Positions 23,654 to 35,699 of a DNA stretch of 64,000 nt are shown piece after piece. The translations under genes were made by a program, and so were the position numbers. A model generated the notes under the pieces. The model did no database searches. It was not told the origin of the DNA and worked only from the letters and a program-made list of their open reading frames with translations. Source of the stretch: Lacibacter sp. H407 (GTDB taxonomy: Bacteria; Bacteroidota; Bacteroidia; Chitinophagales; Chitinophagaceae); the NCBI RefSeq assembly GCF_037892605.1, contig NZ_JBBKTU010000001.1, positions 930,001-994,000 of the forward strand, given 5' to 3'. Each line of letters opens with the position of its first letter. Position 1 is the first letter of the stretch.

Positions 23654-23672
23654 TTTGTGTTTTGTTTTGTTT

Positions 23673-23744
23673 CTGTCCGACGCCCTCATCTGACAGAATT
23701 TTTTTGTTTGATTAATAATTCCGTCCGACGAGGGCATCTGACGG
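23673..23744. repeat. REP doublet in the asd leader
   Basis: Two 24-bp elements, 23673-23696 and 23721-23744, share CGTCCGACG-like and ATCTGAC flanks but have the central CCCTC inverted to AGGGC, so the RNA copies can pair with each other over most of their length. A third copy lies at 35676-35699. Each has its own 5-bp end stem. They lie between the attenuator terminator and the asd start codon. Confidence 0.7.
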
Positions 23745-23748
23745 GTGG

Positions 23749-23781
23749 AAAAAAATAAGGCCTTCCATTTCGGGAAGGCCT
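23749..23781 (-). terminator. Attenuator-type intrinsic terminator in the asd leader
   Basis: On the minus strand a perfect 9-bp stem (23781-23773 with 23766-23758, AGGCCTTCC / GGAAGGCCT) with a 6-nt loop is followed by TATTTTTTT. It lies 31 nt after the leader ORF stop and about 95 nt before asd. The leader end GGGAAGG (23821-23815) is exactly complementary to CCUUCCC (23778-23772) in the 5' arm and loop, giving a 7-bp antiterminator. Confidence 0.8.
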
Positions 23782-23811
23782 GTTATTATGTTTACAACAC
23801 AACGTACAATG

Positions 23812-23868
23812 TTACCTTCCCTTGCGGAACTGTTTCTTTGTGCGTTTTGTATGTTTAATAATCATCAT
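23812..23868 (-). CDS. Putative asd leader peptide (attenuation ORF)
   Basis: A minus-strand ORF of 18 codons from ATG 23868: MMIIKHTKRTKKQFRKGR, then TAA. Eleven residues are Met, Ile, Lys or Thr, the end products of the pathway in which the next gene, asd, acts. The start codon is 6 nt after a perfect -7 promoter box, so the message would be practically leaderless. Its last codons (AAG GGA AGG) contain GGGAAGG, which can pair with the following terminator. Stalling at the Lys/Thr codons would leave this segment free for antitermination, while a ribosome at the stop would cover it. That is the classical logic of amino-acid attenuation. No experimental support is available. Confidence 0.68.
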   Translation of the reverse strand: MMIIKHTKRTKKQFRKGR

Positions 23869-23874
23869 GAAATT

Positions 23875-23906
23875 CAAAAGTAAAGCTGAATCTGCGTTTC
23901 ACCAAA
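23875..23906 (-). promoter_or_regulatory. Promoter of the asd leader transcript
   Basis: On the minus strand TTTG (23906-23903), 20 nt, then TACTTTTG (23882-23875): both elements of the Bacteroidota consensus TTTG / TAnnTTTG with ideal spacing. Transcription should begin around 23868-23870, at or next to the leader ATG. Confidence 0.8.
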
Positions 23907-23967: not shown

Positions 23968-25689
23968 ATGCTTCGTTTTCTGTATTTTATTGTAACGATT
24001 GTTTGTTCGTGTGTGCACGGCAACAGTTCGTTTGCGCAAAACCGTTATGCAATTGTGATCACGGAGATCATGAGCGACCCTACGCCGCAAATCGGGTTAC
24101 CCAATAATGAATGGATCGAAATACGCAATACAACCAACGCTGCTATCAATCTTCAAAACTGGCGTGTTGGCGATGCCGGCGGAGTAAGCGGAGCACTACC
24201 CAACTTCTTATTACAACCCGATAGCAGTGCTATTATTTGCGGCACAGCTGCCGCAGCAACCATGCAACAGTATGGCCGCACTTTCGGCGTTACAAGTTTT
24301 CCTTCTCTTGATAATACAGGTGAATTGATTTTTATCCGCAGCAACAATGGCTCTACGATTCATGCTGTCGAATACAATCTTAACTGGTTTAACAATACAG
24401 TAAAAAGTGATGGTGGCTGGACACTTGAAATAATCGATGTCAACAATCCTTGCAGCGGAGTCAATAACTGGCGGGCGAGTATCGATCCACGAGGTGGAAC
24501 ACCCGGTATAAAAAACTCTGTTGACGGAACCAATACCGATCAAATACCTCCTGCTTTGCTCAAAGCATTCGCCATTGACAATACAACTATACTATTGAGT
24601 TTTGATGAACCGTTAGATAGTTTGTCAGCTGCTACAGCAGCCAACTACCAGATCAGTAACGGTATCGGTTCACCGCTTTCTGCTATTTGTATTGCACCAT
24701 TGTTCAATATGGTACAACTAACACTCAGCAATGCATTACAGGCCGGAACAACTTATACAATTACCGCCAGTAACGTTACTGATTGTAAAGGCAACCGCAT
24801 TGCTGCTTTTAATCAAACCAAAGCGGGAATCAGTTCAGCAGTTGCAGCAAATGATTTGATCATCAACGAAGTGTTGTTTAACCCAACCAGTGATGGAACC
24901 GACTATGTGGAGATCTACAATCGAAGCAATAAGATCATCAATCTGAAAAATGTATTGCTGGCTAACAGAAGCAGTGCAGGTGTAATAGCCAGTATGCGTC
25001 CATTTAGTGCAAATGATCTTGCGATGTTTCCAGGTGAGTACTATGTATTAAGTGCCGATGAGCAAATTGTAAAACGACAGTTCACTGCAAAAAATCTTTC
25101 TGCGTTTCTCAATCTGTCTTCCATGCCTTCGTATCCGGATGCCAGCGGAACAGTTGTGTTAAGTGATAATGGCGGGTTGGTAATTGATGAACTCGCCTAC
25201 GATGAGAAATGGCATTTTGCATTGATCAATAATCCGGAAGGTGTTGCGTTGGAGCGCATTGATCCAAACGCTGCTACTCAAAATAAAGATAACTGGCATA
25301 GTGCCGCCAAAGATGTTGGCTATGGAACGCCATCTTATCAAAACTCGCAGTTTCGTTTAGACTTGCAGGTACAAGGTGAGGTGACAGCAACTCCTGAAGT
25401 ATTTTCTCCCGATAATGATGGCAACGATGATTTTGTAACCATCGGCTATCGGTTCCCTGAAACCGGTTATGTGATGAGCATAACAGTATTTGATGCGGCC
25501 GGTCGTCCGGTAAAAGCATTGCAGCGAAATACTGTTTGCAGTCAGCAGGGAAATTTCCGTTGGGATGGATTGAATGATAAATTTCAACCGTTGCCGCTTG
25601 GGCCGTATGTGATCTTTACCGAAGTATTTAACCTGCAGGGAAAAGTAAAGCGGTTTAAGAAACAAGTAGTACTTGCCCGCCGGTTCTAA
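23968..25689 (+). CDS. Lamin-tail-domain surface protein with T9SS type B (gliding-motility) C-terminus
   Basis: 573 residues with a signal peptide ending near residue 24 (SFAQN). Two lamin-tail domains are visible: about 27-150 (VITEIMSDPTP, NEWIEIRN) and about 295-420 (LIINEVLFNPTSDGTDYVEI). An Ig-like segment lies between them (PPALLKAFAIDNTTILLSFD). The last 95 residues (EVFSPDNDGNDDF, FRWDGLNDKFQPLPLGPYVI, KRFKKQVVL) match the FlgD-like/type B sorting domain of CHU_C-type secreted proteins. It is expected on the cell surface; the binding partner is unknown. It is a stand-alone gene, divergent from the asd leader. Confidence 0.88.
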   Translation: MLRFLYFIVTIVCSCVHGNSSFAQNRYAIVITEIMSDPTPQIGLPNNEWIEIRNTTNAAINLQNWRVGDAGGVSGALPNFLLQPDSSAIICGTAAAATMQQYGRTFGVTSFPSLDNTGELIFIRSNNGSTIHAVEYNLNWFNNTVKSDGGWTLEIIDVNNPCSGVNNWRASIDPRGGTPGIKNSVDGTNTDQIPPALLKAFAIDNTTILLSFDEPLDSLSAATAANYQISNGIGSPLSAICIAPLFNMVQLTLSNALQAGTTYTITASNVTDCKGNRIAAFNQTKAGISSAVAANDLIINEVLFNPTSDGTDYVEIYNRSNKIINLKNVLLANRSSAGVIASMRPFSANDLAMFPGEYYVLSADEQIVKRQFTAKNLSAFLNLSSMPSYPDASGTVVLSDNGGLVIDELAYDEKWHFALINNPEGVALERIDPNAATQNKDNWHSAAKDVGYGTPSYQNSQFRLDLQVQGEVTATPEVFSPDNDGNDDFVTIGYRFPETGYVMSITVFDAAGRPVKALQRNTVCSQQGNFRWDGLNDKFQPLPLGPYVIFTEVFNLQGKVKRFKKQVVLARRF

Positions 25690-35640: not shown

Positions 35641-35699
35641 AATGTACGAAGGAAGATGTACGATGTACGAACGCTCCGTCAGACGCCCTCGCCGGACGT
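35641..35699. repeat. Composite dispersed repeat incl. third copy of the asd-leader REP element
   Basis: A gtacga-type stretch (35643-35670) is followed by ccgtcagacgccctcgccgg (35676-35699), whose reverse complement differs from the asd-leader element at 23721-23744 at two or three positions. It lies between a plus-strand stop (35637) and the next start (35809). Confidence 0.65.

Follow-up and report, generated by a model that had tools for sequence, protein, structure and literature searches.

The window analyzed here, 64,000 nucleotides of Lacibacter sp. H407 (contig NZ_JBBKTU010000001.1, positions 930,001 to 994,000 of the forward strand), contains a short open reading frame (ORF) set between a promoter and a terminator, ahead of a gene that we take to be asd (this name and that of dapA, used below, are assigned from the sequence), which raises the question of whether these elements together control the gene. 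The reading that we favor, at a probability of about 0.9, is that they form a ribosome-mediated transcription attenuator that would couple asd to charged Lys-tRNA and, secondarily, to charged Thr- and Ile-tRNA. Such a leader would probably raise the shared step of Lys, Thr, Ile, and Met synthesis upon shortage of those amino acids.

Anatomy of the asd leader

The whole leader element spans positions 23906 to 23749 of the minus strand (Table 1), with 215 nt from the leader ATG to the asd start codon and a linker of 30 nt from the ORF to the terminator. A sequence-only reading had reported a TTTG-N20-TACTTTTG promoter, an 18-codon ORF 6 nt farther on, and a 9-bp terminator followed by a run of T's, and each is present where it had been placed; Lys, Thr, Ile, and Met make up 11 of the 18 leader residues, as that reading had it, when the start Met is counted.

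Table 1. Elements of the asd leader and the presumed regulated gene, in window coordinates
Feature	Position	Strand	Basis or remark
-33 element TTTG, Bacteroidota-type promoter	23903..23906	-	Sequence
-7 element TACTTTTG (TAnnTTTG)	23875..23882	-	20 nt after TTTG; sequence
Leader ORF MMIIKHTKRTKKQFRKGR, 18 codons plus stop	23812..23868	-	ATG at 23868, 6 nt after TACTTTTG
Region A, sensor codons KHTKRTKK, proposed stall site	23833..23856	-	Column conservation, codon use, tree counts
Region B, GGGAAGG, antiterminator 5' arm, overlapping the last codons of the ORF	23815..23821	-	Sequence, folds
Region C, linker segment pairing with region A in free RNA	23794..23811	-	Folds, cross-pairing test
Region D, terminator 5' arm and antiterminator 3' arm	23772..23781	-	CCTTCCC at 23778-23772
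Region E, terminator 3' arm GGAAGGCCT plus T-run	23749..23766	-	Hairpin listing; two-sided pair changes
Terminator AGGCCTTCC-(6 nt)-GGAAGGCCT, 9 perfect pairs	23781-23758	-	Followed by TATTTTTTT at 23757-23749
asd, aspartate-semialdehyde dehydrogenase, presumed regulated gene, 329 aa	22664..23653	-	Translation

An intrinsic terminator thus stands between the leader ORF and asd. It does not mark the 3' end of another gene, because the neighbor beyond the promoter (23968-25689, plus strand) is divergent to asd. The hairpin scores as terminator-like on both strands, and the run of seven T's occurs on the asd strand only. The leader folds more stably than shuffled sequences (z of -3.7), with 1 of 200 shuffles as good. 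Between the terminator and asd lies a long inverted repeat (23665-23742), to which a sequence at 35678-35695 is related and variants of which precede asd in several genomes of the same genus; it looks like a palindromic repeat.

Distribution and codon-level conservation

To place the leader among relatives, we searched 59 related genomes with the Asd protein of the window and read the regions upstream of asd at 54 loci. The leader is present at 26 of the 34 asd loci from the family of the window, the Chitinophagaceae (one of the 34, L040, contains a run of N), with an identically placed ORF in all 26, and at none of the 20 loci from other families of the order (the upstream piece of L042 was not extracted). 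Family genomes that carry the leader encode an Asd 79 to 100% identical to that of the window. A covariance model built from these first 26 leaders, with which the later ones were found, matches 172 of 294 family genomes at an E value of ≤1e-7, representing 67 of 101 genera, and has no match at that threshold in the other 122; at a looser cutoff (E of ≤0.01), which admits weak matches, 222 of the 294 match. Scanning the order at an E value of ≤1e-4 yielded matches in 67 of 298 genomes, and the five that fall outside the family (L107 to L111) were judged by eye to be chance terminators. In a scan of the phylum at an E value of ≤1e-5, 10 of 345 genomes match, nine of them in the family; the two matches in the tenth genome (L253 and L254 in G842) likewise appear by eye to be chance terminators. 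Outside the Chitinophagaceae, these scans yielded almost nothing of this leader family.

Named genomes form a set that overlaps the genome set and is not independent of it. The leader peptide pattern is clear in at least 18 of the best 80 named asd loci, a lower bound in that the pattern missed one probable leader (L173), and carriers include Niastella, Limnovirga, Sediminibacterium, Flavihumibacter, and Parafilimonas. One more match, the 19th (L221), appears to be spurious, and no locus of Mucilaginibacter, Pedobacter, Sphingobacterium, Flavobacterium, or Hymenobacter matches the peptide pattern among these 80.

For finer comparison, 128 loci entered curation, of which 9 lacked asd or dapA, 8 could not be parsed, and 111 were parsed, yielding 99 unique sequences; after one misparse (L070) was dropped, there remained 98 distinct leaders, 89 before asd and 9 before dapA. 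Presence of the ORF was a condition of entry into this set, and two start codons (L017 and L079) were set by hand. The eight unparsed loci comprise five asd loci without a leader and three leaders that are real by eye (L123, L147, and L154).

In the Bacteroidota promoter consensus as used here, transcription starts a few bases past the TAnnTTTG box. The full promoter pattern, at no more than one mismatch, has one match in the window against 1.24 expected and is unremarkable alone; it is conservation that raises the leader above chance. The TAnnTTTG box scores 5 or 6 of 6, at 4 to 11 nt 5' of the ATG, in 96 of the 98 leaders, and TTTG is intact (4 of 4) in 70, with the 20-nt spacing in 55 of these 70. 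Given where transcription starts relative to the box, the RNA is expected to begin with the leader ATG or very close to it. The transcript start is accordingly predicted to lie close to 23868, and the ORF is probably leaderless.

Across the 98 leaders, the peptide has the core K-H-(T/I)-K-x-(T/I)-K-K. In the 89 leaders before asd, the six sensor columns read K in 78; T in 72 and I in 14; K in 81, T in 6, and I in 2; T in 58 and I in 20 of 88; K in 82 of 88; and K in 83 of 89. Synonymous codons are used freely at these positions: the second Thr site is encoded by ACA 19, ACC 15, ACG 14, and ACT 10 times, and the second Lys site by AAG 42 and AAA 39 times. When codon changes are counted on an Asd tree covering 85 of the 89 asd leaders, synonymous and nonsynonymous changes number 72 and 73 in the six sensor columns, against 21 and 137 in the four other ORF columns tested; the sensor columns were picked after the alignment had been viewed, so these figures are descriptive and do not constitute a blind test. 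Of 71 nonsynonymous changes that replace Lys, Thr, Ile, or Met in the sensor columns, 52 end within the same four residues, compared to a neutral expectation of 0.13 to 0.46, depending on codon and transition bias. Column 6, outside the core, behaves likewise (25 of 41) and may be a further sensor, or else the pattern may in part reflect base composition.

With respect to composition, Lys, Thr, Ile, and Met account for 51% of ORF residues, versus 32% expected from the base composition of the ORFs. The enrichment is 1.75-fold for Lys, 1.33-fold for Thr, and only 1.13-fold for Ile; for comparison, Asn, whose codons are also A rich, stands at 0.55-fold, and His at 2.16-fold. Met is enriched 3.24-fold with the initial Met excluded, but this value is not separable from effects of proximity to the start codon. 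The sequence-only reading had pointed to all four residues as products of the aspartate pathway; Lys proves the most constant, with Thr and Ile second, whereas the case for Met cannot be told apart from such proximity effects. Its expectations for an alignment of relatives were borne out in that the ORF position, the Lys, Thr, and Ile codons, and the terminator are kept across much of the family and in that the sensor codons mostly change synonymously or within Lys, Thr, Ile, and Met, with drift at the remaining ORF codons. The short ORF thus holds end-product codons that are conserved as codons, and comparison of these sequences indicates that the leader peptide is selected at the codon level.

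A conserved basic peptide might instead be a functional small cationic protein, with the terminator merely ending its own short mRNA, and peTrpL, as described in a portion of PMC10117765, is a precedent for a leader peptide that itself has a function. Yet the C terminus of the peptide varies in both length and sequence while the sensor codons stay, the end of the ORF is complementary to a terminator arm, and all inspected matches at an E value of ≤1e-7 stand before asd or dapA. We regard a small-protein function as very improbable and return to the attenuator.

Alternative pairings and a proposed mechanism

The terminator is 99.4% paired over 100 leaders, and seven of its nine pairs have changed on both sides. 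RNAalifold, applied to the first alignment, recovered the terminator and a tiny hairpin and nothing else, and for this reason each leader was examined individually for alternative pairings. In folds of the free RNA, at least five pairs between the sensor codons and the linker (A:C in the lettering of Table 1) form in 96 of the 98 leaders, and the terminator forms in 96. This hairpin was overlooked by the sequence-only reading, which had named the ORF and the terminator correctly as elements. A further candidate hairpin that seemed promising by eye, between region C and AACAUA within the linker, was set aside as weak, with 9 of 66 leaders at the 5% level and a mean z of -0.67 against shuffles.

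With the sensor codons masked and the 3' arm E absent, an antiterminator (B:D) of at least five pairs forms in all 98 leaders (in the five with no sensor motif by pattern, codon 10 was masked instead), and this count is unchanged with 6, 9, or 12 nt added to the ribosome footprint. With the ribosome placed at the stop codon (footprint from -18 to +11 nt of the end of the stop), at least part of the B arm is occupied in every one of the 98 leaders and the whole arm in 91, and the terminator forms in 98 of 98. That antiterminators number zero in this state follows from the mask itself; when D is free to pair with any upstream segment, at least five such pairs persist in 4 of the 98 leaders.

Both pairings are stronger between partners from the same leader. 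In 66 leaders thinned at 75% similarity, the A:C pairing averages -12.2 kcal/mol with own partners versus -9.0 with partners from other species, and the B:D pairing averages -14.3 versus -12.8, with 0 of 20,000 permutations as good in either case; in a smaller first set of 16 nonredundant leaders, 3 (A:C) and 549 (B:D) of 20,000 permutations were as good. Covariation at fixed alignment columns is no better than in shuffles for B:D and A:C, and support for these two pairings comes from per-sequence folding and the permutation test. Thus, the GGGAAGG:CCUUCCC antiterminator pointed out from the sequence is present in the window and holds across species by both approaches, while the compensatory changes anticipated for the leader are found in the terminator but not, at fixed columns, in B:D.

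Once the RNA is complete, folding with a stalled ribosome gives the terminator as the most stable structure in 65 to 75 of the 98 leaders and the antiterminator in only 23 to 33, depending on the footprint. Since the complete RNA mostly prefers the terminator, the decision of the switch must fall during transcription, as a kinetic choice. An exclusive antiterminator that depends on ribosome position is therefore found by calculation prior to synthesis of the 3' arm (98 of 98) and in the permutation test, but not in the complete RNA of most leaders or in fixed-column covariation. With no ribosome and before synthesis of E, 75 of 98 leaders fold most stably into the antiterminator, such that A:C alone predicts termination without translation weakly; a role for A:C as an anti-antiterminator is plausible, though not firmly predicted by these folds.

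We propose the following sequence of events. RNA polymerase would begin transcription on the leader ATG or no more than a few bases from it, with a ribosome trailing the polymerase. When Lys (or Thr or Ile) is scarce, the ribosome would halt within KHTKRTKK and mask region A, upon which B (GGGAAGG) could pair with D (CCUUCCC) ahead of the synthesis of E, permitting readthrough into asd. When the amino acids are plentiful, the ribosome would reach the stop codon and cover B, leaving the D:E terminator to form. The A:C pairing would loop out B and in this way possibly act as an anti-antiterminator.

Alternative pairings in a structured RNA ahead of genes of the lysine pathway might also belong to a metabolite-binding riboswitch, such as a lysine sensor, with translation uninvolved. 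Conservation in this leader, however, follows codons; no match in the window attains the gathering score of its Rfam family, and nothing below threshold is convincing (e.g., Phe_leader, at 28.9 of 55 bits), with no lysine riboswitch listed up to an E value of 10. A riboswitch is, in our judgment, extremely improbable. Ribosome-mediated transcription attenuation, as first suggested for this locus from its sequence, is supported by the conserved anatomy and by both the codon-level and the cross-species pairing evidence.

Amino acids predicted to be sensed and relation to known systems

Copies of the leader before dapA, which we take to encode the first lysine-specific step, bear on which amino acid is sensed. 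In the nine curated dapA leaders, Lys occupies the four Lys columns in 9, 9, 9, and 7 cases, and the second Thr/Ile site is Val in seven and Ser in two. Val or Ser at this site fits a gene that would serve lysine only, though this concerns few genera and perhaps few events. Two strong copies (E of ≤1e-7) occur in 15 of the 172 genomes, and in all eight of those inspected (G015, G065, G120, G137, G209, G247, G300, and G324), one copy stands before dapA; the second stands before asd in the seven where it was read (all but G137). Another genome (G072) has the same asd/dapA pair as one strong and one weaker copy. Four genomes of one genus (G060, G156, G271, and G310 of g47) have two strong matches each. 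Before the dapA gene of the window's own genome, the 420 nt that were read contain no leader of this type.

In the genus of the window, thrA is preceded by a short ORF of another kind, whose C-terminal part carries a Thr/Ile run (...TTIITTTIR in the window's own genome), in 13 of 14 genomes searched (L104, L255 to L267, and L284). G006 has only a short run, and the ORF is absent from G005. No hairpin-plus-T match lies between this ORF and thrA in those 13 genomes; in G008, one such match falls inside the short ORF. The genome that lacks the thrA ORF, which is 2.4 Mb in size, also lacks the asd leader (L019 and L268), possibly a linked loss in a small genome.

From the constancy of Lys, the loss of the second Thr/Ile site before dapA, and the separate ORF before thrA, we take lysine to be the main signal for the asd leader, with Thr and Ile probably as a second input. 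The same observations suit an attenuator for which lysine is the sole signal and the Thr and Ile codons result from A-rich RNA-pairing constraints, as does the position of the first Thr within an ACAUACA segment that pairs with the linker. Before asd, however, the second site is Thr or Ile in 78 of 88 leaders, with all four Thr codons in use, and the repeated exchange of Thr and Ile there (16 amino acid changes on the tree) indicates that the identity of the residue is kept and not the base. Lysine as the only signal is accordingly a possible but doubtful alternative to a leader that also senses Thr and Ile. Whether seemingly leaderless short ORFs before asd, dapA, and thrA divide the sensing in Chitinophagaceae among Lys plus Thr/Ile, Lys, and Thr/Ile, respectively, we hold to be evenly balanced; if true, a lysine-sensing ribosome attenuator would occupy the place held elsewhere by the lysine riboswitch.

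A his leader was observed in the window's own genome (MILNAHTHHHHTCPNR, directly after a TTATTTTTG box before hisG; L106, G000:C1:3809500-3811500, minus strand). It bears HTHHHHT directly 3' of a TATTTTTG box, together with an ORF:linker hairpin and a terminator, and a similar his leader (MFKKAHTHHHHFLFNG) occurs in L118. Among eight weaker covariance-model matches inspected in this genome (L056 to L063), one (L058) is the his leader, and the others look like ordinary terminators.

The classical leader-peptide attenuators are those of the Escherichia coli thr, his, and trp operons, and Rfam includes the families Thr_leader, Trp_leader, and Lysine riboswitch. None of these three, nor Bacteroid-trp (RF01692) or asd RNA (RF01732), has a covariance-model match at its curated score in the window. 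The Bacteroid-trp RNA is listed for Bacteroidetes in Table 1 of PMC2864571, and 5' regions encoding leader peptides, with suspected attenuation, are reported upstream of amino acid operons in Flavobacterium psychrophilum (PMC9723704, in whose main text the words asd and lysine are absent). As far as these portions of the sources go, both are cis-regulatory leaders from the same phylum, but they precede other or unnamed operons. The asd RNA motif, assigned to Lactobacillales in the same Table 1 of PMC2864571, is named after the same gene, but it belongs to a different taxon and has no match here. Closest in codon content is SEP5 of Sinorhizobium meliloti, a suspected leader peptide before an aspartate-pathway gene; as presented in part of PMC10117765, which also reports a leaderless trp leader from Sinorhizobium, SEP5 has six Thr and three Lys codons, is confined to Sinorhizobium, precedes a gene called aspartate dehydrogenase, and, unlike the asd leader, is given no attenuator structure.

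Among the open-licence literature matches listed, and in the portions of text that these offer, there is no leader-peptide attenuator for asd or dapA in Bacteroidota, although the general kind had already been suspected in the phylum (PMC9723704, in part). The kind is known, therefore, and what is new to the literature searched is the unannotated family, together with the lysine codons in its leader peptide and the copies before dapA. These provide a concrete, testable mechanism for control of the lysine pathway in a large bacterial family and point to attenuation by lysine-codon leader peptides at both asd and dapA, whose copies amount to a natural experiment on the retuning of regulatory codons after copying. 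They also suggest that other unannotated, leaderless short ORFs before amino acid genes of Bacteroidota may be attenuators. By the tests possible on sequence, the asd leader belongs to the class of ribosome-mediated attenuators: it shares with the classical systems a short ORF with regulatory codons and a mutually exclusive antiterminator and terminator, and it differs from them in having Lys as its main codon, in an ORF that is seemingly leaderless, and in sensor codons whose pairing partner, the linker, is located 3' of the antiterminator 5' arm.
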